NCBI GenBank assembly: GCA_003282145.1
Contig: QBZZ01000001.1
Location: 124,001 to 188,000, forward strand
Length of the DNA stretch: 64,000 nt
Direction of reading: 5' to 3'
Source: SAR116 cluster bacterium AG-337-N21
GTDB taxonomy: Bacteria; Pseudomonadota; Alphaproteobacteria; Puniceispirillales; Marisalimonadaceae
Shown here in pieces: positions 10,817-30,209 of this stretch. The notes beneath the pieces were generated by a model. That model worked only from the letters and a program-made list of their open reading frames with translations, was not told the origin of the DNA and did not search any database. Position 1 is the stretch's first letter. The number at the start of each line of letters is the position of its first letter. The position numbers and the translations under genes are program-made.

Positions 10817-11165
10817 TCTTTCATTCATTAGCCCAGAGTTGATGCCTTGGTTTATGTTGTTAATCGCAGGGTTAGGTATTTTTATTTGGAGAATTTTTGG
10901 TGTTACATTATCTAGCAAAATAGATAAAGATGGCCTTTTTGCAAAATGGATAAATGCTGTTGCCTTTGCAATGACTACAGGATTGATGGTTAGAATTATT
11001 TTCTTCCCTACTGGCGCCTTAGCTCAAACTAATATGCTTGAAAGATTAATACCATTCGTGATTGGGGTAATCGTATTTTTATGCTTCCCCAAAAAACCAA
11101 TTATGGGCTTACTAGTTGGAGTAGGCGCTTTTAGTATAACAATTTTTTATAATCAATACTTTTAA
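10809..11165 (+). CDS. AzlD-family small membrane subunit
   Basis: A 118-residue protein with about four hydrophobic helices, the size of AzlD. The IWRIFGVTLSSKID segment after the first helix is the conserved AzlD loop that normally reads LRRLP-x-LL. It overlaps the AzlC-like gene by eight bases, so the two are translationally coupled and probably form one exporter. The stop overlaps that of the convergent acyl-CoA dehydrogenase by four bases. Confidence 0.75.
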   Translation: MHDLSFISPELMPWFMLLIAGLGIFIWRIFGVTLSSKIDKDGLFAKWINAVAFAMTTGLMVRIIFFPTGALAQTNMLERLIPFVIGVIVFLCFPKKPIMGLLVGVGAFSITIFYNQYF

Positions 11166-12337
11166 TTATCTGAAACTAATTGCTTGGCAATAATAAGTTT
11201 TTGTAATTCATTTGTACCCTCACCTATGGCTAATAGAGGTGCGTCCCTATAATATCTCTCAATATTATATTCTGGAGAATATCCAAATCCACCATGAATT
11301 CTCATTGCTTCGGTTGAATTAAACAATGCTGTTTCAGTAGCAAAAAGTTTAGCCATTCCTGCCTGCAAATCAGACCGGTTTCCTGAGTCATAAGCTTTTG
11401 CAGCTTGCTCTGTTAGTAACCTCGACGCCTCAAGCTTAGTTGCCATTTCTGCTAATTTAATTTGAATTGATTGATGTTCACTTATAGGCTTGCCAAAGGT
11501 TTTCCTTGTTTTAGCATACTCTATAGAATCGTCTAGAGATGCTCTAGCAACTCCAACACCTCTTGCAGCTACATTTATTCTACCTAACTCAAGGCCGGCT
11601 AGAATTTGCTGTAAACCCTTACCTTCTATTTCGCCAATAAGGTTAGACTTAGGCACCTTTACATTTTCAAGTTGCACTTCTCCTGTATCTATGCCTCTAT
11701 ATCCAAGTTTTTTTAATTTTCTGGCTACAAATCCGTGATTTTTTTCTACAAGTATTAAGCTCATTCCCTTGTGAGCAGGTTTAATATTTGTGTTAGTCTT
11801 TACTAAAACAGCTAAAATTGAACCCTGAACTGAATTTGTTATCCAAGTTTTAGTTCCATTTATGATGTATTCATCACCTACTTTTTCTGCTTTTGTTTTA
11901 ATTGATTGGAGATCAGTTCCACAGTCTGGTTCAGTTAATGCAATTCCACCTCTTATTTCACCGGATGCAAATTTTGGAAGATAATACTGTTTCATCTCTT
12001 CAGAACCAAATCTCTCAACAGCCGCACACATTATTAAATGAGAATTAAAAATACCTGATACAGACATCCACACTGCAGAGACATTTTCTACAATTTTGGA
12101 GTAAGTAACTGCAGATAAACCCAAGCCTCCGTATTCTGGAGAAATAGTTGCTCCAAAAAGACCTAAATCCGCCATTTTATCAGCAATTAATTGAGGGTAT
12201 TTATCTTCTGATTCAAACTCCTTAACAAATGGCTTTACATCTCTTTCAAGAAACTTGTTTACTGTGTCTATGATAAGGTTATCTTCTTCTGAAACAGGAC
12301 TTTTTTGTTCGACTTCTAGAATTCTTTGATCATTCAT
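11162..12337 (-). CDS. Acyl-CoA dehydrogenase
   Basis: A 391-residue FAD enzyme of standard ACAD length. Seen: ALTEPDCGTDLQSIKT (FAD and substrate loop, near residue 130), WITNS near 165, the second FAD region RIHGGFGYSPEY and the GEGTNE segment carrying the glutamate expected as catalytic base. ACADs introduce a 2,3 double bond into an acyl-CoA and pass electrons to ETF. The tightly linked gene upstream on the same strand encodes an MmgE/PrpD protein (20 bases away), so the pair may form and then hydrate or isomerise an unsaturated intermediate. GGAG lies seven bases before the ATG. Chain-length preference is unknown. Confidence 0.92.
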   Translation of the reverse strand: MNDQRILEVEQKSPVSEEDNLIIDTVNKFLERDVKPFVKEFESEDKYPQLIADKMADLGLFGATISPEYGGLGLSAVTYSKIVENVSAVWMSVSGIFNSHLIMCAAVERFGSEEMKQYYLPKFASGEIRGGIALTEPDCGTDLQSIKTKAEKVGDEYIINGTKTWITNSVQGSILAVLVKTNTNIKPAHKGMSLILVEKNHGFVARKLKKLGYRGIDTGEVQLENVKVPKSNLIGEIEGKGLQQILAGLELGRINVAARGVGVARASLDDSIEYAKTRKTFGKPISEHQSIQIKLAEMATKLEASRLLTEQAAKAYDSGNRSDLQAGMAKLFATETALFNSTEAMRIHGGFGYSPEYNIERYYRDAPLLAIGEGTNELQKLIIAKQLVSDN

Positions 12338-12357
12338 AAACTTACTCCTACATAAAT

Positions 12358-13740
12358 CTAAATATCAATCTGACTATATTCAAAAATTGAATTTACATTG
12401 TTAGCTTGATCAATTTTAAGCATTAAATCTGTCAATTGATCAACTCTTTGTTTTGATAGATATGGCTCAGTTAATCCCTTAAATTTTGATATAAATTCTA
12501 CATCCTCCATAAAGTTTTCTGGTTCTCCTTTAGGAATTTTTACGAATTTTTCGTATTTTTTTCCTTTTACTACAACTTTTACTTTGGCACTCATATATTC
12601 AGGACAACATTTTTCTGCATCCTCGTCAGGGCTTACCTTTATTTTATTACATAATGAGAGTGTATCTTTATTATTTAGATGATTTTTATAATCATCCCAT
12701 TGCAATCCACCACTTTTAACTGTAACTGCAGCACAGAATGGCATCGAAAACTGACCGTCAACAACACTTTTAGGGTGTTGCTTGTCAGTTAATGGATAAC
12801 CAATTATGTTCAAAGCAGTTTCTGACAAGCCGATATCAATATCATCTAAATCATCAGATGAAAATTTCAATTCTTTTTTCAACTCTATTAATCCATCTAT
12901 TGCAGCATGGCTATATCTACATGACGGATAGGGTTTGACACCAAGATTGAGAGTTTCAAACTCTTCTCCTAGGCCAGTTGTTGCTTTGTTGACGTCACCA
13001 CCTGAAGCATAAGAGTGTAAGTAACCCCATTGTCCTTCAAAGGCTTTTGAAGGACCTTTGAAACCTTCACCAGCCATGATTGCACAACTTAGACCATTTT
13101 GAGCAGCCTGCCCAACGTGAGATCTTTTAGTCCACGCACCGTCTATTAAAAATTGCATAGAACCTGCAGATTGACTTAAAGCAATACCAAATGCAGATAT
13201 ATACTGCTCCTTAGTTAATCCCATCAAATATCCTGCTGCAGCTGCAGCGCCAAAAATACCGCACGTTGCAGAAGGATGAAATCCTTTTTTATAATGCGCT
13301 GAAGATCCTCCAGCCAAACCTAGTCTTATCTGAACTTCGTAACCAACAACACATGCTGTAATTAATTCTTGGCCAGATGATTTATTCATCTGCGCAGCCG
13401 CCAGCGCAGCTGACAAAATGGGCGCACTTGAATGAAGAGATGCTTCCGCATGTGTGTCATCAAAATCAAGAGAATGCGCTAAAGTTCCATTTAAAAGCGC
13501 TGCAGCACTTGGTGAATACGTTTTTTTATCTGAAAAAACTTGGCAGCTACCATTGCTCATTTCTAATTTATCAATTGCAGAAACCAAGCTAGATGTTGAT
13601 TCTGCGTCATGTCTGGCCCTTATGATAATTCCTACAGTATCTAAGATAAGTAATTTTGTTCTTTTAATAACTTCTGGAGAAAGATCTTCATATTTTAACT
13701 GTTCACAAAATTCAGCAAATTTTTCAGTCATATTTTCCAT
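12358..13740 (-). CDS. MmgE/PrpD family protein (first of three in the window)
   Basis: A 460-residue member of the 2-methylcitrate dehydratase / cis-aconitate decarboxylase superfamily. Seen: DFDDT (about residues 92-96) in the conserved active-site region HSLDFDDTHAEASLHSSAP, the FHPSATCGIFGAAAAAG helix, and KPYPSCRYSHAAIDG. The superfamily dehydrates, epimerises or decarboxylates polycarboxylic acids. Sequence alone does not separate these activities. AAGGAGG lies five bases before the ATG. It is 20 bases upstream of the acyl-CoA dehydrogenase on the same strand. The substrate is open: methylcitrate is unlikely to be the default, because no prpB/prpC is adjacent. Confidence 0.88.
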   Translation of the reverse strand: MENMTEKFAEFCEQLKYEDLSPEVIKRTKLLILDTVGIIIRARHDAESTSSLVSAIDKLEMSNGSCQVFSDKKTYSPSAAALLNGTLAHSLDFDDTHAEASLHSSAPILSAALAAAQMNKSSGQELITACVVGYEVQIRLGLAGGSSAHYKKGFHPSATCGIFGAAAAAGYLMGLTKEQYISAFGIALSQSAGSMQFLIDGAWTKRSHVGQAAQNGLSCAIMAGEGFKGPSKAFEGQWGYLHSYASGGDVNKATTGLGEEFETLNLGVKPYPSCRYSHAAIDGLIELKKELKFSSDDLDDIDIGLSETALNIIGYPLTDKQHPKSVVDGQFSMPFCAAVTVKSGGLQWDDYKNHLNNKDTLSLCNKIKVSPDEDAEKCCPEYMSAKVKVVVKGKKYEKFVKIPKGEPENFMEDVEFISKFKGLTEPYLSKQRVDQLTDLMLKIDQANNVNSIFEYSQIDI

Positions 13741-13844
13741 CTATTCCTCCTTATTCATATTAAATATTAAACTATAATTTAATTTTACAAAACCAAAAAA
13801 TAATCAGTAGTATATACAATATTGAAATTATTTAGTGAAAACAA

Positions 13845-15128
13845 ATGACAAAACCTTTCGAATTAACGGCAAGTGAAGCAATTAAACTTATAAGAAATAA
13901 AAAACTTTCTATACATGAATGGGTGTTAAGTTGTTTTGAAAGAATCAAAGAAAAAGAAGATGTTGTGAAAGCGTGGATATATCTAGATGAAGAAAATGCA
14001 CTAAAAGAATCAAAACAATTAGATGAACAAATTAACAACATCGCACTTGGTATACCATTTGGAATAAAAGACATTATAGATGCTAGTAATGTGCCTACTG
14101 GTTTTGGTACACCTTTTTACAAAAATAATATTCCAGCAAGAGATGCTGCATCGGTTGCTGTCTCAAAGCAAGCCGGTTGTGTGTTTATGGGCAAAACCGT
14201 ATCTACAGAATTAGGACATAGGGCGCCAGGCCTCACAACAAATCCACATAATAAAGACTTTACTCCAGGTGGCTCTAGTTCTGGATCAGCAGCGGCTGTC
14301 GCTTCCAAGATGGTACCGGTTTGTTTTGGAACTCAGACGACTGGTTCGGTTATTAGACCAGCAGCCTATTGTGGTGTCATTGGTTATAAACCAACATATG
14401 GGGACTTTGATAAATCTGGAATTCTTCCAAACTCTCCTTCAATTGACACATTAGGCCTAATGACAAGGTCAGTAGAAGATTTATCTCTTTTTCGATCAAT
14501 TTTATTAGAAGAAAAAATTGTAAAACCACAAAATGTGGACTTGAAGAAATTGAAAATTGGTTTTGTGAAAACTCCTCACTGGAATAAAACAGATTTATCT
14601 ACCCAGACTAACCTAGAGATATTTTTAGACACTCTTAGGACAGATAAATTAAATATTATTGACCTTAATATTGATGCATTAATATCTAAAGCAGATGAAT
14701 TACATTTAGACATAAGTGGTTATGAGTTTAAAAGATCTATCTCTTTTGAGAGATTTAATCATTATGACGAATTAAGTGATCAGTTACGAAACGGAAGATT
14801 AAATGATGGGTATCAAGTAACCAATAAACACTATAAAATTGCCCTTAAAAAACTAAGTATTTTAAAACATGAGACAGATTTAATTTTTAACAATATTGAT
14901 ATGATTATTACCCCAAGCGCTCCTGGTGAAGCTCTCGCAGGTCTCGGGTACACAGGCTCACCGATTTTTAATACTACATGGTCTTTAAATGGTAACCCTT
15001 GTGTTACCTTACCTTTATTTAAGGGAGATAAAGAACTGCCAATTGGCTGCCAGCTAGTCACAAAATTTGGAAATGATAACCAACTTTTAGATTACGCTAA
15101 TACTATTATGAATACTTACTTAAAGTGA
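13845..15128 (+). CDS. Amidase (amidase-signature family)
   Basis: A 427-residue enzyme with the full amidase-signature triad: Lys75 in PFGIKDIID, the cis-serine in GGSSSGSA (residues 142-149) and nucleophile Ser168 in TTGSVIRPA. The family hydrolyses carboxamides to acid plus ammonia; GatA and biuret or urea-amide enzymes belong here, but no GatC/GatB is nearby, so this is a stand-alone catabolic amidase. A weak ribosome site precedes the ATG. It is divergent from the MmgE/PrpD gene and its last 13 bases overlap the end of the TRAP large permease on the opposite strand. Confidence 0.9.
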   Translation: MTKPFELTASEAIKLIRNKKLSIHEWVLSCFERIKEKEDVVKAWIYLDEENALKESKQLDEQINNIALGIPFGIKDIIDASNVPTGFGTPFYKNNIPARDAASVAVSKQAGCVFMGKTVSTELGHRAPGLTTNPHNKDFTPGGSSSGSAAAVASKMVPVCFGTQTTGSVIRPAAYCGVIGYKPTYGDFDKSGILPNSPSIDTLGLMTRSVEDLSLFRSILLEEKIVKPQNVDLKKLKIGFVKTPHWNKTDLSTQTNLEIFLDTLRTDKLNIIDLNIDALISKADELHLDISGYEFKRSISFERFNHYDELSDQLRNGRLNDGYQVTNKHYKIALKKLSILKHETDLIFNNIDMIITPSAPGEALAGLGYTGSPIFNTTWSLNGNPCVTLPLFKGDKELPIGCQLVTKFGNDNQLLDYANTIMNTYLK

Positions 15129-16399
15129 GATACCACTAAAAGCTCTGGCAGTGTTAAAGCTAATGCAGGAAATAAAAGTACAATAATTAAAACGCACGTA
15201 TCAGAAATACAAAAGGGGAATGAGCCCTTTATAACTGTAGTTACTGGTAAACCAGTGACACCACTTACAGCAAACAAATTTAAACCAACTGGAGGAATTA
15301 CACTACCAATCTCTATACAAAGAGCAGTTAGTATTCCGAGATGGATTGGGTCTACACCAAGTGCTAATGCTACAGGAAAGTAAATAGGAACAGTTAATAC
15401 CAAAATAGCTACGCCTGTTAAAAACATTGATAAAAATAACAAAGATCCCATTAGAGCAAATAAAAAACCTAAACGAGTTAATCCTAATTCGCCAGCCCAT
15501 TCTGCAATCATTTGCGGCCATCCCATATTAGCAAGATAAAATTGAAAAATACCCACACAACCCAATAAAAAGAAAACAACGGCTGTTAAATTCATTGTTC
15601 TTAGAGTTGTGGGCATTAATTCTTTAACGAATGTTTTGCGTTTAAAAATTAATCCATAAAAGAGAGCATAACTAGCCGCTGCTGCACCCGCTTCTGTGGG
15701 GGTAAATAAGCCACCGTATAATCCTCCAAGAATAATCACCGGCATTAGTAGAGCTGGAACAGCGTCCCTAAATGAACGCCATACCTCACATAAATCAAAT
15801 TTACCTCTTGGTAATTTTATAAACAGAGATACACTTACTATAATCACAGCGTCACTAATAGCGAGCATTATACCAGGAATAATGCCAGCAAAAAACAAGT
15901 CAACTATAGACATTTCTGTAATTACTCCAAATAAAATAAGAGTAATACTTGGAGGTATTAGAAGAGCAATGCCACCAGCAGAAGCTATTACACCTGCAGC
16001 CATCCATTTAGGATAGCCTCTTTTAATTAATTCAGGGTATGCAATAACACTCATCGCTGCAGCCATAGCAGTTGAAGAACCTGATATAGCTCCAAATAAA
16101 ACAGCTGCAAGTAAAGTGGCATAGGCAAATCCACCAGGCACCCATCCTACAACAGAATCAGCAAATCTAAACAGACCAGCTACTAGTCCTGTTTTTTCCA
16201 TTAAAAACCCGGCAAAAATAAAAAATGGTATTGCTACTAAGGTATATTTTGTAAGAAAACTAAAAAAAGCTTCAAATAGTGTGCTGTATGTTAAGAAATC
16301 ATCGAATAAAACTAAAAGTGCTGTAGCGCCAGCAAGAGCAATTCCAATTGGAGCACCTGCAAATAAAAGTGTAAATAAAGATCCACCAAGAGCCCACAT
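15116..16399 (-). CDS. dctM: TRAP transporter large permease (DctM)
   Basis: Integral membrane protein of about 427 residues with a dozen hydrophobic helices, the right size for DctM. Typical motifs include FAGAPIGIALAG near the start, LIPPSITLILFG and PTEAGAAAA. It is the ion-coupled channel of a TRAP importer, driven by a sodium or proton gradient, and needs the small subunit and the periplasmic binding protein encoded just upstream. The frame begins at TTG (16405), but AGGA lies eight bases before the ATG at 16399, which is the better start. It is the last gene of dctP-Q-M and converges with the amidase. Confidence 0.93.
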   Translation of the reverse strand: MWALGGSLFTLLFAGAPIGIALAGATALLVLFDDFLTYSTLFEAFFSFLTKYTLVAIPFFIFAGFLMEKTGLVAGLFRFADSVVGWVPGGFAYATLLAAVLFGAISGSSTAMAAAMSVIAYPELIKRGYPKWMAAGVIASAGGIALLIPPSITLILFGVITEMSIVDLFFAGIIPGIMLAISDAVIIVSVSLFIKLPRGKFDLCEVWRSFRDAVPALLMPVIILGGLYGGLFTPTEAGAAAASYALFYGLIFKRKTFVKELMPTTLRTMNLTAVVFFLLGCVGIFQFYLANMGWPQMIAEWAGELGLTRLGFLFALMGSLLFLSMFLTGVAILVLTVPIYFPVALALGVDPIHLGILTALCIEIGSVIPPVGLNLFAVSGVTGLPVTTVIKGSFPFCISDTCVLIIVLLFPALALTLPELLVVSHFK

Positions 16400-16423
16400 T
16401 ATCAATTTCCTACTTTAAATATG

Positions 16424-16975
16424 TTATACATCGGTTGCAGCTTCGATTGTAGCCGTAAAATGATCACCTTTAATGTAACTATGCACATCTTCAATAAATT
16501 GCAAAAAAGCAACCAGAGACATCAAGCCCATGCCAATAGCTAGTATAAAGTAGAATGGCCACATGTAGAAAAACAAACTCTCCGTTCTTTCTCCAATTTG
16601 AATAGAGTACTCAATTGTTGAATAAGCTGTATAAGTTAAAGATCCGGTAAAAACTGATACAAACATGGAGATAAAAATCTTACAGAAACCCACTGTTCGA
16701 TGGAACCCTTTAGCATTTAATAATTGTAAAACAGCAGTCATAACTAAATGGCTCCTGTTGATTTGGGTAACGCATATATAAAATGCAACCGAAGAAACCA
16801 TCATATAAATCACAGCATCTTGGCCCCATTCAAAAACGACCCCAAAAATATATCTTCTAATAATTTCAGCTAATGCAAATAGTGTAACAGCTATCATTAA
16901 AATTGCAGAACATCTTCCCAAAATAGAAGTTATCAAATCCTGTATTTTATGAGAAATGTTATAAAAGCTGTCCAT
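16424..16975 (-). CDS. dctQ: TRAP transporter small permease (DctQ)
   Basis: A 183-residue protein with four hydrophobic helices as expected for DctQ. The segment AEIIRRYIFGVVFEWGQDAVIYMM carries the family's RR-x-FG and W-x-ED-like landmarks, given here only in outline. DctQ and DctM together form the membrane part of the TRAP importer. It lies 24 bases upstream of dctM and is separated from dctP by a strong hairpin, so its expression is probably well below that of dctP. Ribosome site weak. Confidence 0.9.
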   Translation of the reverse strand: MDSFYNISHKIQDLITSILGRCSAILMIAVTLFALAEIIRRYIFGVVFEWGQDAVIYMMVSSVAFYICVTQINRSHLVMTAVLQLLNAKGFHRTVGFCKIFISMFVSVFTGSLTYTAYSTIEYSIQIGERTESLFFYMWPFYFILAIGMGLMSLVAFLQFIEDVHSYIKGDHFTATIEAATDV

Positions 16976-16990
16976 AATAAATTTTCAAAT

Positions 16991-17021
16991 AAAGAAGGTC
17001 TGACAATTTCAGACCTTCTTT
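16991..17021 (-). terminator. Perfect 13-bp hairpin between dctP and dctQ (attenuator)
   Basis: The arm AAAGAAGGTCTGA (16991-17003) pairs perfectly with TCAGACCTTCTTT (17009-17021) around a five-base loop. In the direction of transcription (minus strand) the stem is followed by a T-rich stretch. It starts six bases after the dctP stop. This is the classic position for partial termination or 3'-end protection that lets the binding protein be made in excess of the permeases. Confidence 0.85.
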
Positions 17022-17027
17022 GATATA

Positions 17028-18197
17028 TTATTTTCTAGACTTTTTCTTAAACAGAGGAGTTCCCTTTGCAAACTTAGCAAAATCAGAAGCAAAAGCTGAA
17101 CAGTCAGTTTTTTCTAGATTACTAGAACCCATAGGATTGGCTGCAACTAATGCTTTAGCTTCAACTGTAAACTGGTCGACCATTTTATCACCTGTAGCAT
17201 CGACTTTAGTTTTAATCCATTCGTTAGTTGCACCACCTTCTTTTTTCTGTAATACACCAGCTTCAGCGGGACTCATCACATATATACCAGGGGCACTTTT
17301 GTCAGTAACCTTAAACTTATCAACCAATCTCTTATCATTACAAAAGTTAATTGCCTTTTGATAAGGTATGAAATCATTCATAATAATGTCAGTTAGAGCT
17401 GCTTGTTGCTTTTTATCAAGTGTAGACCACCATTTGTTTGATGCACCCATCCAATAGTAGTCACCTACAATTCCATTGATACCTGCAACTGTAAAATACG
17501 GTGCTTGCTCCTTAGTGGCATTAAAACCACCTAAACTAGTTAGCAATCCATCGATAACTCCTGTCTGCAGAGCTGGTGGAACATCTCCAAAAGCCATTGT
17601 GGTCGGATTAGCACCTAATGCACCTAATAAGGCATTTTCAGCAGGTCCCATACTTCTAACTTTCTTCCCTGCAAAATCACTAGGAACTAACATTCTACTT
17701 TTAACAGCACCAGCACCCATATACATACTAAGGTGTCCAGAACCAAAAATAGTAATTCCGTGCTTATCATTAAAAACCTTCTTCAATTGAGCAAAAGTTT
17801 TAGTTCCGTCCAAACCATTTATTGCACCAGGTGTTGTTAACTTTCCGGCACCAACAATTGTGTTAGCATATGGCTCAACACTAGATGTTTTTCCAAACTG
17901 ACCTGTCATCATCTCTAGATTGCCTTTGGTTAAGGCTTGAGTTCCTTTTGGAACATTATATAAAGACTTGGCCCAATAAATTTGAACCTTACTTCCAGGA
18001 ATTTTTTTCTCAACCTGCTCTGCAAAAAACATCTCTGCAATCGCAGCAGGGTGGGGGGGGCCAGAGTGGTCTGAGGCCCAACGCATTTTAATAGGTTTAA
18101 CTGCATGTCCGTCTGCAATAGCTAGGTTAGTGCCAGCGGCAAACGTAAGAGCCACAGCACTAACTGCGCCCAAAAGTGATAGTTTAGTAAATTTCAT
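17028..18197 (-). CDS. dctP: TRAP transporter substrate-binding protein (DctP)
   Basis: Periplasmic binding protein of about 389 residues with an N-terminal signal peptide (MKFTKLSLLG, then a hydrophobic AVSAVALTFAAG, cleavage near AIADG). The KIRS-like GKKVRSMGPAENALL segment and the FGDVPPALQTGVIDG pattern, where TRAP proteins bind the substrate carboxylate, are typical of the family. An upstream TTG at 18212 keeps the frame open, but GGAGG overlaps it and points to the ATG at 18197. It is the first gene of dctP-Q-M. Next upstream are the CoA-transferase, hydratase and lyase genes, so the ligand may be a dicarboxylic or hydroxy acid fed to them. That link is inference. Confidence 0.93.
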   Translation of the reverse strand: MKFTKLSLLGAVSAVALTFAAGTNLAIADGHAVKPIKMRWASDHSGPPHPAAIAEMFFAEQVEKKIPGSKVQIYWAKSLYNVPKGTQALTKGNLEMMTGQFGKTSSVEPYANTIVGAGKLTTPGAINGLDGTKTFAQLKKVFNDKHGITIFGSGHLSMYMGAGAVKSRMLVPSDFAGKKVRSMGPAENALLGALGANPTTMAFGDVPPALQTGVIDGLLTSLGGFNATKEQAPYFTVAGINGIVGDYYWMGASNKWWSTLDKKQQAALTDIIMNDFIPYQKAINFCNDKRLVDKFKVTDKSAPGIYVMSPAEAGVLQKKEGGATNEWIKTKVDATGDKMVDQFTVEAKALVAANPMGSSNLEKTDCSAFASDFAKFAKGTPLFKKKSRK

Positions 18198-18308
18198 TAA
18201 AATTTCCTCCAAATATTTAGAATCACAAACTATATCTTTATAGGAATTAGGTAAACCCCTAATTGCAATGAAATATAAGAAATTGATTAATATGTTATGT
18301 AATTTAAA

Positions 18309-19514
18309 TTATATTATACCTTTATTTTTAAAATTACTTATTTGTTCTTCATTAAAACCAATTTCCTCAAGTACATCATGCGTATCGTCGCCAAGTTCTG
18401 GGGCAGTTTTATCACAAAAATTGCTGTCAGTTATATGAACTGGAGTTTTTAATAAACTTATGTCTTCACCACGCTTAGTTTTTAAGTGTTGTATATTTTG
18501 TCTATCTTGTAAAAATGGATTTTCAAGAGACTCTTTTAAATCTAAAATTGGTGCTGCTGGTACTATTCCACCAAATTCAATTAACCAATCTGATGTGTTC
18601 TTTTTCATTAATTCATTATCTAGAATTTTAGTTATTTCATCTCGGTTTTCTTGTCTACAAGCAAAGTTTTTAAATTGTGGGTCTTTGCTTAAATCTTCTC
18701 TACCAATTTTTTTACACAATATTGGCCAAAAACTCTCCTTATTACACATTAAAAAAATCCAGCCATCTTTTGTTTTATATAATTGACACGGTACTAAAAT
18801 TGGATGAGCCGATCTATCTAACCTTTCACTTTTAAACTCTGTGTTCAATGTCCATGCAGCCATATAGCTTTGATTAAACATAGCTGTATCAAACAAGTTT
18901 ACATCTACGTCTCTTCCCAAACCATTAGATCTTGCTGACAAAACAGCACTGACTAGACCAAAAGACATTGTAAGTCCTGACATATAATCTACAATTGAAA
19001 GTCCAAATCTTGCTGGAGGTCCACTTGGCTCACCTGTTAATGAAAAATAACCTGCCTCAGCCTGCATCAAATAATCATATCCAGGCCAATTTTTTCTGGG
19101 ACCTTCTCTTCCATATGCTGAACAATGAGCGGCAACTATAGCTTTATTAAAAGGTTTAAGTTGTTCATAAGTTATTCCAAGTTTTTCTGGAACATCACCT
19201 CTTAAATTATTACAAACAGCATCAGCATTTTCTACTAATTTCTGGAGTATAATTTTACCTTCCTTAGTTAATATATCCAAGGTTATGCTTCTTTTATTTC
19301 TGTTAAGTGCTTGAAAAAAAATACTAGATGCAGAATTCTTATTGTCTCCGTCTATGAAATAAGGGCCAATATCTCTCAAATAATCTCCGCTAGTTCCTGC
19401 TGGCTCTACTTTAATAACGTCTGCACCCATATCCGCTAAATATTGAGTTCCAAATGGACCTGCACCGTACTGTTCAAAGGCAATTACTTTAACGCCAGAT
19501 AAAGGTAAACTCAT
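18309..19514 (-). CDS. CaiB/BaiF family CoA-transferase (A)
   Basis: A 401-residue class III CoA-transferase. Seen: N-terminal LPLSGVKVIAFEQYGAGPFGTQYLADMGADVIKVE pattern (summarised), CNNLRGDVPEKLG, and the nucleophilic aspartate at about 176 in SIVDYMSGL, which in formyl-CoA transferase forms the acyl anhydride. These enzymes move CoA between carboxylic acids, activating a substrate without ATP. It lies 12 bases downstream of the MaoC gene on the same strand, after the CitE-type lyase, and about 110 bases upstream of dctP. Relatives include succinyl-CoA:mesaconate/itaconate/citramalate transferases. Which acid is used here is not shown. Confidence 0.9.
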   Translation of the reverse strand: MSLPLSGVKVIAFEQYGAGPFGTQYLADMGADVIKVEPAGTSGDYLRDIGPYFIDGDNKNSASSIFFQALNRNKRSITLDILTKEGKIILQKLVENADAVCNNLRGDVPEKLGITYEQLKPFNKAIVAAHCSAYGREGPRKNWPGYDYLMQAEAGYFSLTGEPSGPPARFGLSIVDYMSGLTMSFGLVSAVLSARSNGLGRDVDVNLFDTAMFNQSYMAAWTLNTEFKSERLDRSAHPILVPCQLYKTKDGWIFLMCNKESFWPILCKKIGREDLSKDPQFKNFACRQENRDEITKILDNELMKKNTSDWLIEFGGIVPAAPILDLKESLENPFLQDRQNIQHLKTKRGEDISLLKTPVHITDSNFCDKTAPELGDDTHDVLEEIGFNEEQISNFKNKGII

Positions 19515-19526
19515 TAATATTGCTCT

Positions 19527-20066
19527 CTAATTAGCAGTTTCTTCTATAATTTTGTCAACTACACTGTGTCCTCGTTTAGCCACAAGAAAAGACCTAACCA
19601 TATCCATAACGACAACCTTATCCTGATTTTTCCCAATATGTCTAACCTTAACAATACCTTGAGTTGGTCTGGATTTTGATACTCTTTTGTCTAAGACTTC
19701 TGTTTCAGAATATAAAGTATCTCCAACAAATACAGGTGCTGGGATTTTAATTTCTTCCCATCCCAAATTAGCAATAGCTTTTTGACTTGTACCGCTAACA
19801 CACATTCCAGTTACTAGAGCCAATGTGAAGGCAGAGTTTACTAAATATTTTCCAAATTCTGACTTGGATGCATAATTTGCATCAAAATGTATTGGGTGTG
19901 TGTTCATTGTTAGGTTGGTAAACCATATATTGTCAGCTTCACTTACTGTTCTACCTGGCCAATGTTCGTAAACATCACCAACTTGAAAATCTTCAAAATA
20001 TCTGCCTGGATCTTCTCTATACCTATGTGGACCTATTTTTCTAATTCCGTATGTGTTGTCATCCAT
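19527..20066 (-). CDS. MaoC-family (hotdog) dehydratase/hydratase, 179 residues
   Basis: Single hotdog-fold protein. The hydratase-2 region reads MNTHPIHFDANYA around residue 55: the histidine is kept, but the aspartate that normally comes four residues before the NP is not obvious, as in a subgroup related to mesaconyl-CoA hydratases. A GWEEIKIPAPVFVGDTL segment follows in the usual place. Such enzymes add water to, or remove it from, an enoyl-CoA. Its ATG directly follows the TAG of the CitE-type lyase, with GGAGG inside the lyase gene, so the two are translationally coupled. It is much shorter than the two-domain hydratases of the 3-hydroxypropionate bicycle (about 350). Confidence 0.85.
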   Translation of the reverse strand: MDDNTYGIRKIGPHRYREDPGRYFEDFQVGDVYEHWPGRTVSEADNIWFTNLTMNTHPIHFDANYASKSEFGKYLVNSAFTLALVTGMCVSGTSQKAIANLGWEEIKIPAPVFVGDTLYSETEVLDKRVSKSRPTQGIVKVRHIGKNQDKVVVMDMVRSFLVAKRGHSVVDKIIEETAN

Positions 20067-20879
20067 CTAATCCTCCCTTGATATAATCTGTCTAGCTACT
20101 GCTAATACAGGTGCGTCAACCATCTTGCCTTGATATTTGAAGGCTCCAGTACCTGCAGTTTTAGCTTCTTCTAAAACACCCTTTGCCCATTCTAATTCTT
20201 GACTTGTCGGTCTGTAAGCATCATGAATCGGTTTAATTTGGTCTGGATGAATTGCAAACCGCCCTTTAAATCCCATAGTTTTGACATATTGGGTTTCTTC
20301 TCTACAACCATCAGGATCTCTAAAATCTAACCATACACCGTCAAGGGCATCGGCGTTGTATAGAGCAGCGGCGTTAATAATTTTACCTCTACCGTAAGCT
20401 AAACTAGCTTTACCCATGTCTCCACCTGTAGATGCGCAATAATCTGCTGAACCAAATCCTATTCCAGAAAATTCTATATTTGAACAATTCCAACTCTCAA
20501 CTGTTGCGATACCCCGTGGAGTTTCTATTTGTGGTAATATTAAAATATTAGTTCCAAGGTCTTTTAAAAAAGTTCTACACTCATCGGCAGATTCTATTTT
20601 GGGGATGGCTATAGAATAAGGAAGAGTTGATAGAGATTTTAACATCTTTATATCATCTTGATATTCGTCAGTGTCCAAGGCGTTAATTCGTAATAAAAAC
20701 TTGTCCGGTTGACCATCAAAGTTTCTATTTGCTAAATCAGCAAAATTAGATCTACCAAGGGCTTTTTTATCGTGAGCCAGACCATCTTCTAAGTCAAAAA
20801 TTACTTTGTCCGCTCCAGATCCTAGAGCTTTAGGTAATCTCTCAATTTTATCTGTTGGTAAAAATAAAATGCTTCTCAA
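20067..20879 (-). CDS. CitE/HpcH-type CoA-ester lyase
   Basis: A 270-residue TIM-barrel lyase of the malyl-CoA/citramalyl-CoA lyase group. Seen: KVIFDLEDGL near residue 30, the catalytic arginine in LLRINALDT near 64, PQIETPRG with the metal-binding glutamate near 140, GSADYCASTGGD, and GFKGRFAIHPDQI. CitE relatives cleave malyl-CoA, methylmalyl-CoA or citramalyl-CoA into acetyl-CoA or propionyl-CoA plus glyoxylate or pyruvate. No citrate lyase alpha or gamma subunit is near, so free CoA esters are the likely substrate. It is coupled to the MaoC gene downstream and lies 24 bases after a CoA-transferase gene. Confidence 0.9.
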   Translation of the reverse strand: MRSILFLPTDKIERLPKALGSGADKVIFDLEDGLAHDKKALGRSNFADLANRNFDGQPDKFLLRINALDTDEYQDDIKMLKSLSTLPYSIAIPKIESADECRTFLKDLGTNILILPQIETPRGIATVESWNCSNIEFSGIGFGSADYCASTGGDMGKASLAYGRGKIINAAALYNADALDGVWLDFRDPDGCREETQYVKTMGFKGRFAIHPDQIKPIHDAYRPTSQELEWAKGVLEEAKTAGTGAFKYQGKMVDAPVLAVARQIISRED

Positions 20880-20903
20880 AGTAAACTCCTATTTTTTATA
20901 ATT

Positions 20904-22061
20904 TTATATAAAACTAAATTCAGTTCTAATCATTTTGCCATGCTCATCTAATTCAGGCATTTTGTTTACATCTGGTATAAAATTATCATGTATAGCACCA
21001 GGGCCTAAAACTTTTACCTTTCCATTTTTTGTATCAATTTCTATAAAGTTATTTTGTGGATGGTTTTTTAATTGTTCCATATCAGAAATTCTTCCATAAG
21101 CAACACTAGCTTCTTCAAGTTTTCTAATTAATTCTTCTCGTTCGAATTTCATAAATTTATCTTGAATAATTTTCTCTGTTAGCTCTCTATTAGCCACTCG
21201 ATCGGAATTAGTTTTAAAACGATTATCATTTGCCATAAATTCATCATCCAACACTATTTTACACAAATTAGCCCATTCTCTGTCATTTTGGATTGCTATC
21301 AATAAAGTTAGCTTGTCTTTACAAGCGTATGCACCATATGGGACAATTATTGGGTGTGTCATACCGTTTCTTTTGGGAACTTTTTGATTATAAACATAAC
21401 CTAAATAAAAAGGGTTCATCCAATCAGCGAGTGAATTAAACATTGATACTGAAATGTGTCTTCCTTTTCCAGTTATACTTCTTTTAATTATTGCTTGCAA
21501 AATTGCTTGATATGCGGTCATACCTGCAGAAATATCACAAACTGATGGACCAACTTTTGCTCTTCCATCAAATCCTTCTTTATCTGGTAGACCAGTAATA
21601 TCAATAACTCCAGTTTCAGCTTGTATTAACATGTCATAGGCTTTTTGGTTTTTATAAGGACCTTCATCTCCAAAACCAGAAATAGAACATGTAATTAAAG
21701 AAGGATATTTTAATCTTAATTCTTTTAAATCTAAACCAAGACGTTCAAATGCACCTGGGGCTAGGTTTTGAATTAAAATATCTGATTTAGCAATAATATT
21801 TTCAAAAATAGCCATATCTTCTTTATTTTTAAGATCTAAGGCAATTGATTCTTTACCCCTATTTAACCAAACAAAATAGGCGCTATTACCAAGAGCGTTA
21901 CTATCATAATTCCTAGCAAAATCACCCTCTGGTCTTTCTACTTTAATTACTCTAGCACCTGCATCAGCTAGTCTACATGATGTGTACGGAGCAGCAACGG
22001 CTTGTTCAACTGTTACAACTAACAAACCCTCTAAATCTTTAGATGAATTTTGTGCATTCAT
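20904..22061 (-). CDS. CaiB/BaiF family CoA-transferase (B)
   Basis: A 385-residue class III CoA-transferase with the nucleophilic aspartate at about 176 (GPSVCDISAG), the QNLAPGAFERLGL loop and GKGRHISVSMFNS downstream, all in family order. The protein is quite different from CoA-transferase A in this cluster, so they are not recent duplicates. Its start overlaps the stop of the upstream MmgE/PrpD gene by one base (TAATG), a sign of coupled translation. It probably makes the CoA ester that the CitE-type lyase or MaoC proteins use. The donor (succinyl-CoA, acetyl-CoA or another) is not readable. Confidence 0.9.
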   Translation of the reverse strand: MNAQNSSKDLEGLLVVTVEQAVAAPYTSCRLADAGARVIKVERPEGDFARNYDSNALGNSAYFVWLNRGKESIALDLKNKEDMAIFENIIAKSDILIQNLAPGAFERLGLDLKELRLKYPSLITCSISGFGDEGPYKNQKAYDMLIQAETGVIDITGLPDKEGFDGRAKVGPSVCDISAGMTAYQAILQAIIKRSITGKGRHISVSMFNSLADWMNPFYLGYVYNQKVPKRNGMTHPIIVPYGAYACKDKLTLLIAIQNDREWANLCKIVLDDEFMANDNRFKTNSDRVANRELTEKIIQDKFMKFEREELIRKLEEASVAYGRISDMEQLKNHPQNNFIEIDTKNGKVKVLGPGAIHDNFIPDVNKMPELDEHGKMIRTEFSFI

Positions 22062-23383
22062 TAGCTAACCAAACAATCAACTAGAGCATCAACTTTATTT
22101 TCATTAGGGGCATTTAATATTTTAGAAATTTGATTTGATTTGATCTCTGAAAGTAAAGAAACTGATTTATTTACAATTTTAGTTTCTAGAATATTATTCT
22201 CAATTTTATCTGACAAGTCGTGTTTGTTTTTGACATTACTAGAACCATCCTTAATTGAAATTAAAGATTGAGTGTTGCTTAAATTATCATTGGGTATCAC
22301 TCTTACTTTATCTCTAATATTATTTAAATTATCATCAAAACATATTTCATCGCTATATGTATCTAAGTCAGACGTATCTTTACCATAAATTGACATCGCT
22401 GCGGTTAATTTATAAGAAAATTTTGATTCCAATCCTGTTTTTGGTTCTTCAATATTACAAACTTTCAACCATGAAGGGTTAGTCTCAATTGCGATTTCCT
22501 CTATTGTTTCAGGGTTAAAATTATTTTCTAACTTCATCTCATCAAGCGCCTCTAAGAAAGAGTGTAGGCCATGACAACATGCATGAAACTTGTATTTAAT
22601 TTCAGGAAATAAATAATCTGTGCCTAAATTTTCTATAGCTCTAGAAGGAATTTTTTTATCCCAACCGTGTGTTAAGAAAAAACCCTGCTCACATTCAATA
22701 CCATCTTCTTTTGATACAAATCCAAGCTTTGACAATTTAGCAGCTTCAATACCATTTGAAGCAGCCATTCCGGCATGAAATGGTTTACCCATAGTTCCAA
22801 ATTGAGATTTAATTCCTGAAGCTCTGGTGGATACTAATCCAAGAGCATTTATTGTTTGATCTTCATTCAGATTTAATAGTTTTGAAGCAACAATTGTTGA
22901 ACCAAACGAACCACTAGTAGCGGTTTGGTGAAAACCCGCGTTATAATGAGAGTATCCTAAGATATGTCCTATTCTCGTTGAAACCTCCACTCCTGCCATA
23001 TAGGCAAGTAATATATCTTCAATCGAAGAACCTAATTCTTCACCTAATGCCAAAGCAGCTGGTAATGCACTGGAAGTTGGATGGCCGACAAAAAGAAAAT
23101 GCGTGTCATCATAATCTAATGCATGTCCTGTTGCTCCATTAGCTAAGGCTGCTCCTCTGGAGGAAACTTTATGACCAGTAGAAATTACCCTTGCTTGGTT
23201 AACACCATTTTCTTCTTTAACCATTTCAGAAACGATTTTAGAAACCGGTTCTTTTTTTGCAGCATACGCAACACCACACCAATCTAATATAGACATTTTT
23301 GCAAAAAATCTCATTTCATCGTTAAAGCTATCTAATTTACAATTAGATCCAAAACTACCAAACAATTTTGTTATCGATACCAT
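22061..23383 (-). CDS. MmgE/PrpD family protein (second of three)
   Basis: A 440-residue protein with HALDYDDTHFLFVGHPTSSALPAALALGEE as the active-site region (in outline; DDT near residue 93), then FHQTATSGSFGS and an atypical C-terminal third. PrpD relatives include 2-methylcitrate dehydratase and the cis-aconitate decarboxylase that makes itaconate. The window neighbours (CoA-transferases, MaoC hydratases, CitE-type lyase) make a role on a branched polycarboxylate attractive, but this is inference. GGAGG lies five bases before the ATG, and the gene is coupled to CoA-transferase B by a TAATG overlap. Confidence 0.87.
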   Translation of the reverse strand: MVSITKLFGSFGSNCKLDSFNDEMRFFAKMSILDWCGVAYAAKKEPVSKIVSEMVKEENGVNQARVISTGHKVSSRGAALANGATGHALDYDDTHFLFVGHPTSSALPAALALGEELGSSIEDILLAYMAGVEVSTRIGHILGYSHYNAGFHQTATSGSFGSTIVASKLLNLNEDQTINALGLVSTRASGIKSQFGTMGKPFHAGMAASNGIEAAKLSKLGFVSKEDGIECEQGFFLTHGWDKKIPSRAIENLGTDYLFPEIKYKFHACCHGLHSFLEALDEMKLENNFNPETIEEIAIETNPSWLKVCNIEEPKTGLESKFSYKLTAAMSIYGKDTSDLDTYSDEICFDDNLNNIRDKVRVIPNDNLSNTQSLISIKDGSSNVKNKHDLSDKIENNILETKIVNKSVSLLSEIKSNQISKILNAPNENKVDALVDCLVS

Positions 23384-23401
23384 GTTTTCCTCCTATAATT
23401 T

Positions 23402-24259
23402 TTATTCAAAATGTGCTTCAGCTTGCATGGTCATGCCCGAACCTTCGACTGCACCCCAACAAGTAACACTTCCATCTGTATTTCCCTTAGCGCCGATTAT
23501 ATAGTCGCTATTAGCAAAAACAGGAGCCATGACTTTGTGATTAAAAGAAGTTACAGGTTTACCCTTAAGTTTTTCTGCAGCCCTAAGTAAGAATGTTGCT
23601 TGTAGGGGACCATGCACTATTAAATCAGGATAATTTTCTTCATTTTTAGAATATGGATAGTCATAATGAATTCTGTGCCCAACAAAACCAATTGCCGAAT
23701 AACGAAATAAAATAGTAGGATGCATAAAAATTGTTTCAGTGAAGTCTGCATCTTTTGGTATAACATCTGATACTCCAGACCCTCCCCCAGCCTTAGTTAG
23801 ATCACGATAAACAATATTATGTAATTCATGTAAACGAACGTCGTCATCAACTAAATATTCATATTCTGCAGTTACAAAACATAACTTACCTGTTCGACCT
23901 TCTTTTAATTTGATGTCAGCCACTTTAGATTTTTTTATTACCTTATCACCTACTCTTAGAGGGGCTTTTACTTTAATTTGACTTCCTGCCCACATTCTTC
24001 TTGGCAGTGGGACTGGTGGCAGAAAGTCACCACGTGCGGGATGAGAATCAACACCAAGTTCATCATTTTTTTTTAAATTCCAACCTAACATCCAATGTAA
24101 CCCAGTAGTCGCAGCGTCACCAATTGCAGGATCACCTGGATCAATGTTTAGAGTGGCCCTATACCTTTGTTCAACAATTGGTGTAAGATAATCTGTAACC
24201 ATTTCTATATTGCCAAGCCATTTATTTAAATGATTGATATCTAATTCTTCATTATTCAT
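23402..24259 (-). CDS. Two-domain MaoC-like (FAS1-type) hydratase resembling mesaconyl-C4-CoA / itaconyl-CoA hydratase
   Basis: A 285-residue double-hotdog protein. The N-terminal half has the WMLGWNL, HPARGDFLPPVPLPRRMWAG landmarks (short form) of FAS1-like dehydratases. The C-terminal half has FRYSAIGFVGHRIHYDYPYS, then LIVHGPLQATFLL, where the histidine and aspartate form the hydratase site. This layout is that of mesaconyl-C4-CoA hydratase in Chloroflexus and of itaconyl-CoA hydratase in Pseudomonas. It is the first gene of the minus-strand block, 18 bases before the PrpD gene, so it likely shares their transcript. Substrate assignment is by family resemblance only. Confidence 0.85.
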   Translation of the reverse strand: MNNEELDINHLNKWLGNIEMVTDYLTPIVEQRYRATLNIDPGDPAIGDAATTGLHWMLGWNLKKNDELGVDSHPARGDFLPPVPLPRRMWAGSQIKVKAPLRVGDKVIKKSKVADIKLKEGRTGKLCFVTAEYEYLVDDDVRLHELHNIVYRDLTKAGGGSGVSDVIPKDADFTETIFMHPTILFRYSAIGFVGHRIHYDYPYSKNEENYPDLIVHGPLQATFLLRAAEKLKGKPVTSFNHKVMAPVFANSDYIIGAKGNTDGSVTCWGAVEGSGMTMQAEAHFE

Positions 24260-25552: not shown

Positions 25553-26899
25553 ATGCCAGCCTTAGTCACTAATTCAAAAATATGGGGTGAAATGTTTGGT
25601 ACAAGTGAAATGCATTATTTGTTTTCAGATGAAAAAACCACTCAATTATATTTAGATGTCGAAGCCGCTTTAGCAAGATCACAGTCTAAATTAGGTATTA
25701 TACCGAGTGAGGCTGGACAAAAAATAAGTGACGCAGCCAAAATAGACATAATTGATTGGGAAAAACTACAAAAGAGGACATCAATTGTTGGCTACCCTAT
25801 TTTACCTGTAGTAGAACAATTAAGTGATAATGTAAGTGATGGTTATGGACAATACTGTCACTGGGGCGCTACTACCCAAGACATTATGGATACTGCTGAT
25901 GTAATTCAAATAAGGGAAGGGTTTAAACTACTCTCTTCAGATTTAGATTCTATTTCAAATGCACTAGTTAAAATTATCAATGAGCATATAAAAACCCCAA
26001 TGGCAGGAAGAACACACTTACAACACGCCTTACCAGTATCTTTTGGCTATAAGGCATCAACTTGGTTGTCTAGTATTGATAGACATAGAAAAAGACTAGA
26101 AGAAATTAAGGCTCGTGTGTTTAATCTTTCATTCTTCGGTGCTGCGGGAACTCTTGCTTCGCTGGGTGAAATTGATGGATTAAAAACTCAATCAGCATTA
26201 GCAGACGAATTAAATTTAAATGTGCCTGATGTAAGTTGGCATTCAATTAGAGATAACTTTTGTGAAGTAACTGGTTGGCTTGCTTTGGTAGGAGCTTCGC
26301 TAGGTAAAATAGCCTATGATGTAATGTTAATGATGCAAACTGAAACACAGGAAGTTGCTGAACCTTTCCTTCATGGAAGAGGCTCTTCTTCCACAATGCC
26401 CCAGAAAAGAAATCCTATTTCTTCAGAGGTAATGTTAGCTTGTTCAAAACTACTACGCGAACATCATTCGTCTATGCTTGATGCTATGGTTCTTGACCAT
26501 GAAAGAGCAACTGGTCAATGGCATGTTGAATGGTATGCATTACCTAACGCCTTTATTATTGCTTCTTCATCTTTTAGTGCCGCTAAATTTCTTTTAGAAG
26601 GACTGGAAATTTCTCCACAAAAAATGAAAGAAAATATTTACAAAACCAATGGATTAATTGTTGCAGAAGCAGTTATGATGGCCCTAGCCCCTCATCTTGG
26701 TAGACAAATTGCTCACGATATAGTCTATGACTGCTGTCGTCACTCTATAAAAAATAATATTCCATTTATTGACTCACTTTTAAAAGACGGAAAAATTTCT
26801 AATATTTTTAATAGAGATGATTTGTCAAAAATTGTTGATCCAGCCAATTATCTTGGGGCAGCTCCGGCAATGGCAAGTAGACTTCTAATTAATAGATAA
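25553..26899 (+). CDS. Fumarase/aspartase-superfamily lyase, 3-carboxymuconate cycloisomerase (PcaB)-like
   Basis: A 448-residue protein with three superfamily regions in order: HWGATTQDIMDT near residue 100, GRTHLQHALPVSFGYKAS near 150, and the signature GSSTMPQKRNP near 280. The last reads STMPQKRNP as in PcaB rather than the SAMPHKRNP of adenylosuccinate lyase. PcaB cyclises 3-carboxy-cis,cis-muconate after ring opening of protocatechuate, and this window does encode protocatechuate 3,4-dioxygenase about 16 kb away. However, it sits in a crotonase/thioesterase operon, so another carboxylate substrate is possible. Only three bases separate it from the crotonase gene. Confidence 0.8.
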   Translation: MPALVTNSKIWGEMFGTSEMHYLFSDEKTTQLYLDVEAALARSQSKLGIIPSEAGQKISDAAKIDIIDWEKLQKRTSIVGYPILPVVEQLSDNVSDGYGQYCHWGATTQDIMDTADVIQIREGFKLLSSDLDSISNALVKIINEHIKTPMAGRTHLQHALPVSFGYKASTWLSSIDRHRKRLEEIKARVFNLSFFGAAGTLASLGEIDGLKTQSALADELNLNVPDVSWHSIRDNFCEVTGWLALVGASLGKIAYDVMLMMQTETQEVAEPFLHGRGSSSTMPQKRNPISSEVMLACSKLLREHHSSMLDAMVLDHERATGQWHVEWYALPNAFIIASSSFSAAKFLLEGLEISPQKMKENIYKTNGLIVAEAVMMALAPHLGRQIAHDIVYDCCRHSIKNNIPFIDSLLKDGKISNIFNRDDLSKIVDPANYLGAAPAMASRLLINR

Positions 26900-29391: not shown

Positions 29392-30201
29392 ATGAGTTTT
29401 GTTGAAACTGAAATAAATGGACAGATTATAACGATAAGGTTAAATCGTCCTGAAAGATTGAATGCCTTGAGTACCGTTATAAGAACTGGTATGGCGGAAG
29501 CATTTAACAGGTTTCATGAGGATAATGATCTAGAAGTCGCAATCTTGACAGGGACAGGTAGAGGTTTTTGTGCGGGTGAAGACATGAAAGAATCTCTAGA
29601 TAGAGGTATTCCTGGCTCTCCAAAAGAATTTGTTGAAGAAAATTTGGTAGATCCATTTCAAACTGGGGCACTTAAAAAACCAGTTATAGCAGCTGTAAAT
29701 GGTTTTGCTATGGGTGGTGGTTTCATGCTGGTTGAACGAACAGATTTAAGAGTAGCTGTAAAAGAAGCTATATTTGAAATGTCAGAGGCCAAGAGGTGGC
29801 TTCTTGGTGGTTATAATCATGGTCATTATGGAAATCTACCTCATCCAGTAGCAACAGAAATGGCATTTGGATACAGAATTACAGCAGAAAGAATGCATCA
29901 GGTTGGTTTCATTAATCGTCTTGTGGAAGCCAAAGATTTAATGAGTGAAGCATATTCTATGGCTAAACACCTTCTTACACTACCTCCTGCTGCCAGAGTA
30001 AATACACTTTATATGATGAAACATATGGCACCAAGAATTAGTCCAAATATTGCTGATTTAGCTGAGAAACTTCACCTTCATGGAGATACAGAAGATAGAA
30101 TGGAGAGCAGACGTGCTTTTGCTGAAAAAAGAAAACCAAACTACAAAGGTTGGCTAAAGCCTGAAGATAGATACAATATGCCCAAACTAGAAGAAAAATA
30201 G
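29392..30201 (+). CDS. Enoyl-CoA hydratase/isomerase family protein (crotonase B)
   Basis: A 269-residue crotonase with LNRPERLNALS near residue 16, the first oxyanion loop GFCAGEDMKESL near 62 and the second AVNGFAMGGGFMLVERTDLRVA (in outline) near 100. Where many hydratases have a glutamate after the second loop it reads FEMSEAKRW, so the activity could be hydratase, isomerase or another CoA-ester reaction. TAGGAG lies seven bases before the ATG. A CaiB-type CoA-transferase follows nine bases later and is probably its partner. Different from crotonase A. Confidence 0.87.
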   Translation: MSFVETEINGQIITIRLNRPERLNALSTVIRTGMAEAFNRFHEDNDLEVAILTGTGRGFCAGEDMKESLDRGIPGSPKEFVEENLVDPFQTGALKKPVIAAVNGFAMGGGFMLVERTDLRVAVKEAIFEMSEAKRWLLGGYNHGHYGNLPHPVATEMAFGYRITAERMHQVGFINRLVEAKDLMSEAYSMAKHLLTLPPAARVNTLYMMKHMAPRISPNIADLAEKLHLHGDTEDRMESRRAFAEKRKPNYKGWLKPEDRYNMPKLEEK

Positions 30202-30209
30202 AGGTTAAC

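Follow-up and report, generated by a model that had tools for sequence, protein, structure and literature searches.

A candidate branched C5-dicarboxylate gene block of a SAR116 bacterium joins two modules that occur apart elsewhere

We analyzed a 64,000-nucleotide stretch of the genome of SAR116 cluster bacterium AG-337-N21 (contig QBZZ01000001.1, positions 124,001 to 188,000; hereafter the window), in which positions 11162-24259 carry a block of genes for coenzyme A (CoA)-ester enzymes and a tripartite ATP-independent periplasmic (TRAP) transporter. The block joins two modules that are seen apart elsewhere: module B, with a homolog of itaconyl-CoA hydratase (Ich), the MmgE/PrpD protein PrpD1 and the CoA-transferase CaiB-B, and module A, with the CoA-transferase CaiB-A, a RipB-type hydratase, a CitE-type lyase and an acyl-CoA dehydrogenase. 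Module B is Pseudomonas-like, and module A is a recurrent set. We propose, with a probability of about one half, that the whole is a fused catabolic cluster for a branched C5-dicarboxylate of the itaconate/methylsuccinate type, ending in the cleavage of citramalyl-CoA. The novelty lies in the joining of the two modules, since a PrpD and a TRAP transporter beside CaiB, hydratase and lyase genes are already known. Gene content, clade membership, synteny, purifying selection and an Asn-to-Val change in Ich were computed directly. The genes are:

23402..24259, minus strand: Ich, double-hotdog itaconyl-CoA hydratase homolog, with Val193 at the expected catalytic Asn (FVGHRIH)
22061..23383, minus strand: PrpD1, MmgE/PrpD protein, predicted dicarboxylate C2 epimerase/isomerase
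20904..22061, minus strand: CaiB-B, class III CoA-transferase of the itaconate CoA-transferase (Ict) clade
20067..20879, minus strand: CitE/RipC-type lyase, predicted citramalyl-CoA lyase; TTG start listed
19527..20066, minus strand: RipB-type single-hotdog (R)-hydratase (short MaoC), with N-x4-H present (N55, H60)
18309..19514, minus strand: CaiB-A, class III CoA-transferase of a second clade, from loci with RipB-type hydratases
17028..18212, minus strand: DctP, TRAP substrate-binding protein of an uncommon subfamily (PF03480); TTG start listed
16424..16975, minus strand: DctQ, TRAP small permease (PF04290)
15116..16405, minus strand: DctM, TRAP large permease (PF06808, TIGR00786); TTG start listed
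12358..13740, minus strand: PrpD2, second MmgE/PrpD protein (PF03972/PF19305), predicted dicarboxylate epimerase/isomerase
11162..12337, minus strand: acyl-CoA dehydrogenase of a clade from RipB loci, predicted methylsuccinyl-CoA dehydrogenase-like
13845..15128, plus strand: amidase, conserved neighbor on the opposite strand; NCBIfam amidase models match, all below cut-off

The linkage of the two modules was examined in one even sample of the class (385 genomes, the window's own included; E cut-offs of 1e-45 for RipB, 1e-85 for CaiB-A and 1e-40 for Ich), in which many assemblies are fragmented and some linkage is possibly missed. RipB was found in 62 genomes, CaiB-A in 53 and Ich in 115. RipB and CaiB-A co-occur in 47 genomes and are at most 15 kb apart in 31 of these, again counting the window's own. 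Their spacing is 1.17-1.33 kb in 25 of 33 linked pairs, and a dehydrogenase gene fills the gap in all four such loci that were fetched (L175, L177, L189 and L192). RipB and Ich are both present in 27 genomes, and only in the genome of the window are they within 10 kb of each other; the next-closest distances are 19, 42 and 157 kb, and in the remaining genomes the two genes are on different contigs. Named loci of module A are those of Azospirillum, Variovorax, Aminobacter and Caballeronia SBC1; on the Azospirillum plasmid p4, the module comprises lyase, RipB, PrpD, dehydrogenase, CaiB, amidase and dctQM genes. Module B genes with a lyase of their own and without RipB occur in three loci from other families of the same order (L045, L046 and L048) and on the marine Paracoccaceae La6 plasmid. 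Among the ranked matches listed in searches of the open PMC literature, no paper on the two-module form and no characterization of the RipB-dehydrogenase-CaiB module was noticed.

A contig scan kept the best 80 of more than 592 relatives; these include Pseudomonas species, P. aeruginosa itself excepted, and stand in for Ict, methylsuccinate isomerase (Msi) and the acyl-CoA dehydrogenase Mcd. The loci were fetched with Ich or RipB/CaiB-A as query, so that the matching of partners in the trees is partly due to selection, from which the separation of clades and the class-sample linkage test are free. Several rows are long-branched, with possible false joins, and the deeper branching order was not used. 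In the 57-row CaiB tree, CaiB-B shares a 22-row clade (100/100) with the transferases that Pseudomonas, Halomonas, Burkholderia and others carry in their Ich clusters, and is thereby assigned to the Ict clade as represented by these relatives in place of assayed Ict. CaiB-A is in a separate 13-row clade (100/100), the other members of which come from loci with RipB-type hydratases. Both transferases retain the catalytic Asp and are of the PF02515 CaiB type, not of the RipA type. A carnitine-type transferase was rejected for either, given their large distance from E. coli CaiB in the tree.

The other members of module A were placed in the same manner. The acyl-CoA dehydrogenase groups with proteins of RipB loci in a 13-row clade (100/99), apart from an 18-row clade of Ich-adjacent dehydrogenases; with CaiB-A and the dehydrogenase in its clades and the genes linked, the block contains the RipB-dehydrogenase-CaiB module. 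The lyase is in an 8-row clade (100/99), every row of which comes from a RipB locus, including the Paraburkholderia caribensis lyase that adjoins an annotated ripB. Its nearest NCBIfam model is RipC (NF038242, 165 bits) and its nearest PDB entry is 8khl, a "probable acyl-CoA lyase beta chain". The nearest NCBIfam model of the short MaoC is RipB (NF038241, 232 bits over residues 1-169), and its motif TMNTHPIH keeps the N55/H60 dyad intact. Its nearest PDB structures are two-domain mesaconyl-CoA hydratase-type chains, and it spans only positions 19-167 of 353 in PF19315.

Gene order, including the dehydrogenase, PrpD2 and the amidase, is conserved in all 12 genus-mate regions examined. The cluster Ich is present in 33 of 37 genus genomes, the window's own counted, and CaiB-A in the same 33, where the two genes always share a contig. 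They lie on one strand, separated by 3876-3895 bp, in 32 of these genomes, the exception being G015 (6132 bp, opposite strands). The conserved order and the sharing of contigs show that the arrangement goes beyond chance. The four genomes without the two genes (G001, G027, G029 and G033) are only 60-79% complete, so that absence is not proven there; assemblies of the genus measure 1.0-2.3 Mb. Against three genus-mates, the ratio of nonsynonymous to synonymous substitution rates (dN/dS) is 0.013-0.067 across the ten cluster genes run (all but DctQ); in two of the three comparisons, almost every gene has a dS greater than 1, and one gene in each of the two is without a value.

A sequence-only reading of the same DNA had placed nine of these open reading frames in one cluster at 15116-24259. 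All nine are on the minus strand at the claimed places, and Pfam, NCBIfam and PDB searches bear out the families named. These limits are too narrow, as they miss the acyl-CoA dehydrogenase and PrpD2 (11162-13740), which are on the same strand behind the convergent amidase gene and which synteny and phylogeny assign to the block. As for the two stop-start overlaps put forward, PrpD1 and CaiB-B do share one base at 22061, but between the lyase and the short MaoC there is no overlap, the two genes meeting end to end at 20067/20066. The other gaps measure 18 bp (Ich-PrpD1), 24 bp (CaiB-B-lyase), 12 bp (RipB-CaiB-A), 96 bp (CaiB-A-dctP), 52 bp (dctP-dctQ) and 18 bp (dctQ-dctM). A promoter scan gave no signal (42 sites observed, 54.0 expected), and 14 terminator-like sites were observed for 7.3 expected. 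The longest terminator-like stem listed, a 14-pair hairpin called on the plus strand, is located between dctP and dctQ (16990-17022) and may cause the binding protein to be expressed unevenly.

Ich belongs to its family by both sequence and fold. Its closest PDB structures are 8khg (E 5e-50, 36% identity) and 8huc (E 1.5e-49), and the best fold match of its predicted model (pLDDT 89.9, 33-row alignment) is the P. aeruginosa Ich, PaIch (template-modeling score 0.88-0.93). The N-x4-H dyad of the family is not present. For mesaconyl-CoA hydratase, the consulted portion of PMC10164722 describes Asn226 and His231 (N-x4-H) as known catalytic residues of other MaoC-like hydratases; the role of the dyad is taken over here from this related enzyme, and the motif suggests that PaIch uses the equivalent Asn. 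In the window, the motif reads FVGHRIH, with Val193 at the expected Asn and His198 retained; the residue two before is also changed, from Thr to Gly. Val occupies the position in 33/33 genus copies found (24 genomes, then 9 more). A paralog in the genus, 49-53% identical, reads FNGHRIH in 28/28 genomes; it was not found in the window's own genome, which is incomplete. All 92 other aligned Ich rows carry Asn (88 FNGHR, 4 FNSHR), most of the loci behind them coming from a scan with patterns that permit Asn or Val there. The cluster Ich and the paralog form a single clade (7 of 29 rows, 100/100), hence a duplication within the lineage preceded the Asn-to-Val change. The gene is under purifying selection (dN/dS 0.041-0.059). 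At the locus L042 (7534-8382), the Asn-intact paralog adjoins genes resembling those of 3-hydroxyisobutyrate dehydrogenase and a pyridine nucleotide-disulfide oxidoreductase, with DAHP synthase, NAD synthase and tRNA-synthetase genes farther out.

Having lost the expected catalytic Asn, Ich is probably altered towards isomerization, in which case hydration would fall mainly on RipB. We tentatively suggest that, after the duplication, the cluster Ich specialized in itaconyl-CoA/mesaconyl-C4-CoA isomerization, or else turned into some other CoA-ester enzyme that does not hydrate; its two tasks, isomerization and hydration, would have been divided between it and a RipB that was recruited from an independently evolved module, and two convergent itaconate routes would have merged into a hybrid. 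The block could also be an ordinary Pseudomonas-type itaconate/methylsuccinate cluster, in which RipB and CaiB-A are redundant and Ich hydrates normally despite Val193. The Ict clade of CaiB-B and the PaIch fold agree with this, and PrpD, dehydrogenase and TRAP genes are present in known clusters. It is nevertheless unlikely: the Asn is lost in every copy of the cluster Ich and kept in every genus paralog, RipB has one of the lowest dN/dS values in the block (0.013-0.028; no gene is lower in two of the three comparisons), and the lyase, the dehydrogenase and both PrpDs fall outside the Pseudomonas-type clades.

Regarding the MmgE/PrpD proteins, the best PDB matches of PrpD1 are B. subtilis IRG1 and iminodisuccinate (IDS) epimerase. 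For Msi, the portion of PMC12290011 consulted lists H88, E91, H102, Y148, H152, K202 and K266. PrpD1 and PrpD2 retain all of these except E91, for which they, like IDS epimerase, have D. Y148 and H152 correspond to Asn and Asp in E. coli PrpD, and Y148 to His in the PrpDs from the Azospirillum and Caballeronia loci of module A. A cis-aconitate decarboxylase chain (12vq) has Met at this position in the single alignment shown. The Tyr of the isomerases, present in both window proteins and missing from the decarboxylase chain and E. coli PrpD, favors epimerase/isomerase chemistry, and we predict dicarboxylate epimerases/isomerases for both. A cis-aconitate decarboxylase identity was rejected because both carry the isomerase Tyr; 2-methylcitrate dehydratase was rejected from the same position and from the TIGR02330 scores (25 bits for PrpD1 and 42.6 for PrpD2, of 458). 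Thus, the two proteins share the two-base His/Tyr set and the lysines with IDS epimerase and (S)-(R)-methylsuccinate isomerase, but they lie in clades separate from both. PrpD1 is in a 7-row clade, four other members of which adjoin Ich, and the sister of PrpD2 (99/98) is a PrpD from Shinella, encoded next to an Ich cluster.

The pathway that we propose for the fused cluster takes its chemistry from the portions of PMC12290011 and PMC9875883 consulted; each reaction, the exact substrate and the TRAP cargo are inferred from protein families. PrpD1 and PrpD2 would interconvert the two enantiomers of methylsuccinate or another 2-substituted succinate, and the Ict-type CaiB-B together with CaiB-A would transfer CoA to the acid from a donor, for example succinyl-CoA. 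The acyl-CoA dehydrogenase would oxidize methylsuccinyl-C4-CoA to mesaconyl-C4-CoA, the product that Ich would form from itaconyl-CoA. RipB would then hydrate mesaconyl-C4-CoA to citramalyl-CoA, to be cleaved by the RipC-type lyase into acetyl-CoA and pyruvate. The separate clades of the CaiB, dehydrogenase and PrpD proteins are also what one would expect of two side-by-side modules for different 2-substituted succinates, with one shared lyase and perhaps shared regulation: module B would serve itaconate/methylsuccinate, and module A another branched acid, yielding acetyl-CoA and another 2-oxo acid. The His at the catalytic Tyr position in the Azospirillum and Caballeronia PrpDs fits such an arrangement, as does the different TRAP transporter that accompanies module A elsewhere (DctP 28-29% identical). 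Yet the block has a single lyase, which groups with RipC-type lyases and points to citramalyl-CoA for both arms; two substrates are thus possible, though we hold this doubtful.

Several observations weigh against a fused C5-dicarboxylate cluster. The Asn-to-Val change argues against Ich being a plain hydratase. The RipB-like and RipC-like proteins score below the NCBIfam cut-offs of 340 and 375 bits, respectively, and the window lyase groups with seven RipB-locus lyases, leaving four others (L057, L059, L060 and L062) outside its clade. Neither PrpD1 nor PrpD2 is in the 12-row Msi-type clade, itself represented by Pseudomonas and Burkholderia-type relatives in place of assayed proteins; since the two PrpDs, the dehydrogenase and the lyase are all outside the Pseudomonas-type enzyme clades, the substrate may differ. 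The genes flanking the block are likewise syntenic in 12/12 genus-mate regions, so that synteny alone does not delimit the functional unit. Finally, the DctP subfamily occurs in other contexts elsewhere, and transport may therefore be unrelated to the pathway; in the loci surveyed (L166-L168, L180 and L181), its neighbors are TauD, 2-hydroxyacid dehydrogenase, Ldh_2 or formaldehyde dehydrogenase genes.

The transporter was compared with Pseudomonas relatives standing in for the itaconate-binding protein IctP, with numbering shifted by one. DctP retains R169, K94, F192 and Y236, and K41, S91, Q171, N209 and N213 are changed. Its subfamily was found in 10 of the 385 class genomes at E 1e-40, the window's own included, and three other module A loci (L056, L171 and L175) carry the different binding protein mentioned above. 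DctP probably binds a carboxylate. Uptake of a branched dicarboxylate through dctPQM, as the sequence-only reading had it, is unsupported: DctP belongs to an uncommon subfamily and preserves only some of the ligand contacts of IctP.

On the other side of Ich, a lyase resembling fumarase/3-carboxymuconate cycloisomerase is encoded on the plus strand (25553-26899); homologs directly adjoin Ich in L145 (48%) and in L143 (33%). Enzymes of this superfamily make or cleave substituted succinates, and the substrate of the block might accordingly be a larger or hetero-substituted succinate, not a C5 acid. The likeness of the PrpDs to IDS epimerase is in line with such a substrate, and the isomerase active site could accommodate larger ones, according to the consulted portion of PMC12290011. 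We consider this very unlikely, as the closest families of the core enzymes use C5 acids, the flanking lyase gene has the opposite orientation and, of the 80 loci of the contig scan, only 2 list a homolog. Farther away (29392-31421, plus strand), genes for an enoyl-CoA hydratase and for a third CaiB are found; in G416 (L166), homologs with 64% identity lie upstream of the same DctPQM subfamily, at a distance of about 7-9 kb. The amidase between the TRAP genes and PrpD2 is 27% identical to the amidase of the Azospirillum locus, and distant amidases (23-28%) are also present in the RipB loci L056, L058, L186 and L190.

In the consulted portion of PMC12290011, itaconate degradation is described in two convergent variants, Pseudomonas-type and Yersinia-type, and the saprophytic clusters combine ich, ict and ccl with the acyl-CoA dehydrogenase Mcd and an MmgE/PrpD that is the (S)-(R)-methylsuccinate isomerase. 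PA0881 of the P. aeruginosa cluster is this isomerase (portions of PMC12290011, PMC9875883 and PMC12599236), and the TRAP genes PA0884-6 encode the itaconate importer IctPQM (portions of PMC9875883 and PMC12599236). An MmgE/PrpD together with a TRAP transporter is thus a known arrangement. Compared to the P. aeruginosa PA0878-PA0886 and Cupriavidus necator clusters (ich, mcd, msi, ict and ccl, with ictPQM in P. aeruginosa), the window has the same enzyme classes in one block: an Ict-clade CaiB, the PaIch fold, MmgE/PrpD, acyl-CoA dehydrogenase, CitE-type lyase and TRAP. It differs by its extra RipB hydratase, extra CaiB and extra PrpD, by an Ich without the Asn, by a lyase, dehydrogenase and PrpDs of other clades, and by a TRAP binding protein of another subfamily. 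With the Yersinia/Salmonella-type RipABC system, the window shares a RipB-type single-hotdog hydratase adjoining a RipC-type lyase, but the block has CaiB in place of a RipA-family CoA-transferase, and its RipB and RipC scores are below the cut-offs. With the RipB-acyl-CoA dehydrogenase-CaiB(-lyase) module of Alpha- and Betaproteobacteria, such as that of the Azospirillum brasilense plasmid p4, it shares CaiB-A and the dehydrogenase, which group with the proteins of the module, and the lyase, which groups with part of them; here, however, the dehydrogenase lies beyond the TRAP genes and the amidase gene, and the module is fused with one of the Ich/Ict kind. The enzymes of the 3-hydroxypropionate bicycle do not match: the TIGR04253 scores for 2-methylfumaryl-CoA isomerase are 27 and 64 of 725 bits, and the short MaoC is not a two-domain mesaconyl-CoA hydratase.

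Overall, the earlier interpretation is partly supported. The enzyme set for converting itaconate or mesaconate to citramalyl-CoA that it recognized is borne out by the Ict clade of CaiB-B, the PaIch fold of Ich and the resemblance to RipB and RipC, below the curated cut-offs for the latter two. It had called the arrangement unusual, and the two CoA-transferases and the half-size MaoC are indeed unlike the published clusters compared, but the MmgE/PrpD is no oddity, given the PA0881 precedent. Unrelated clades combined with a non-conserved block, which it had named as fatal to the idea, are seen neither in the trees nor in the genus synteny.

Soil bacteria and pathogens are known to degrade itaconate and methylsuccinate (consulted portion of PMC12290011). 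The joining of parts of both convergent forms in a probably marine genus would suggest a use of branched C5 diacids as substrates in the sea. The block would also offer a natural test case for the splitting of a dual isomerase/hydratase, and it points to a recurrent alphaproteobacterial module of RipB, acyl-CoA dehydrogenase, CaiB and, often, a lyase.

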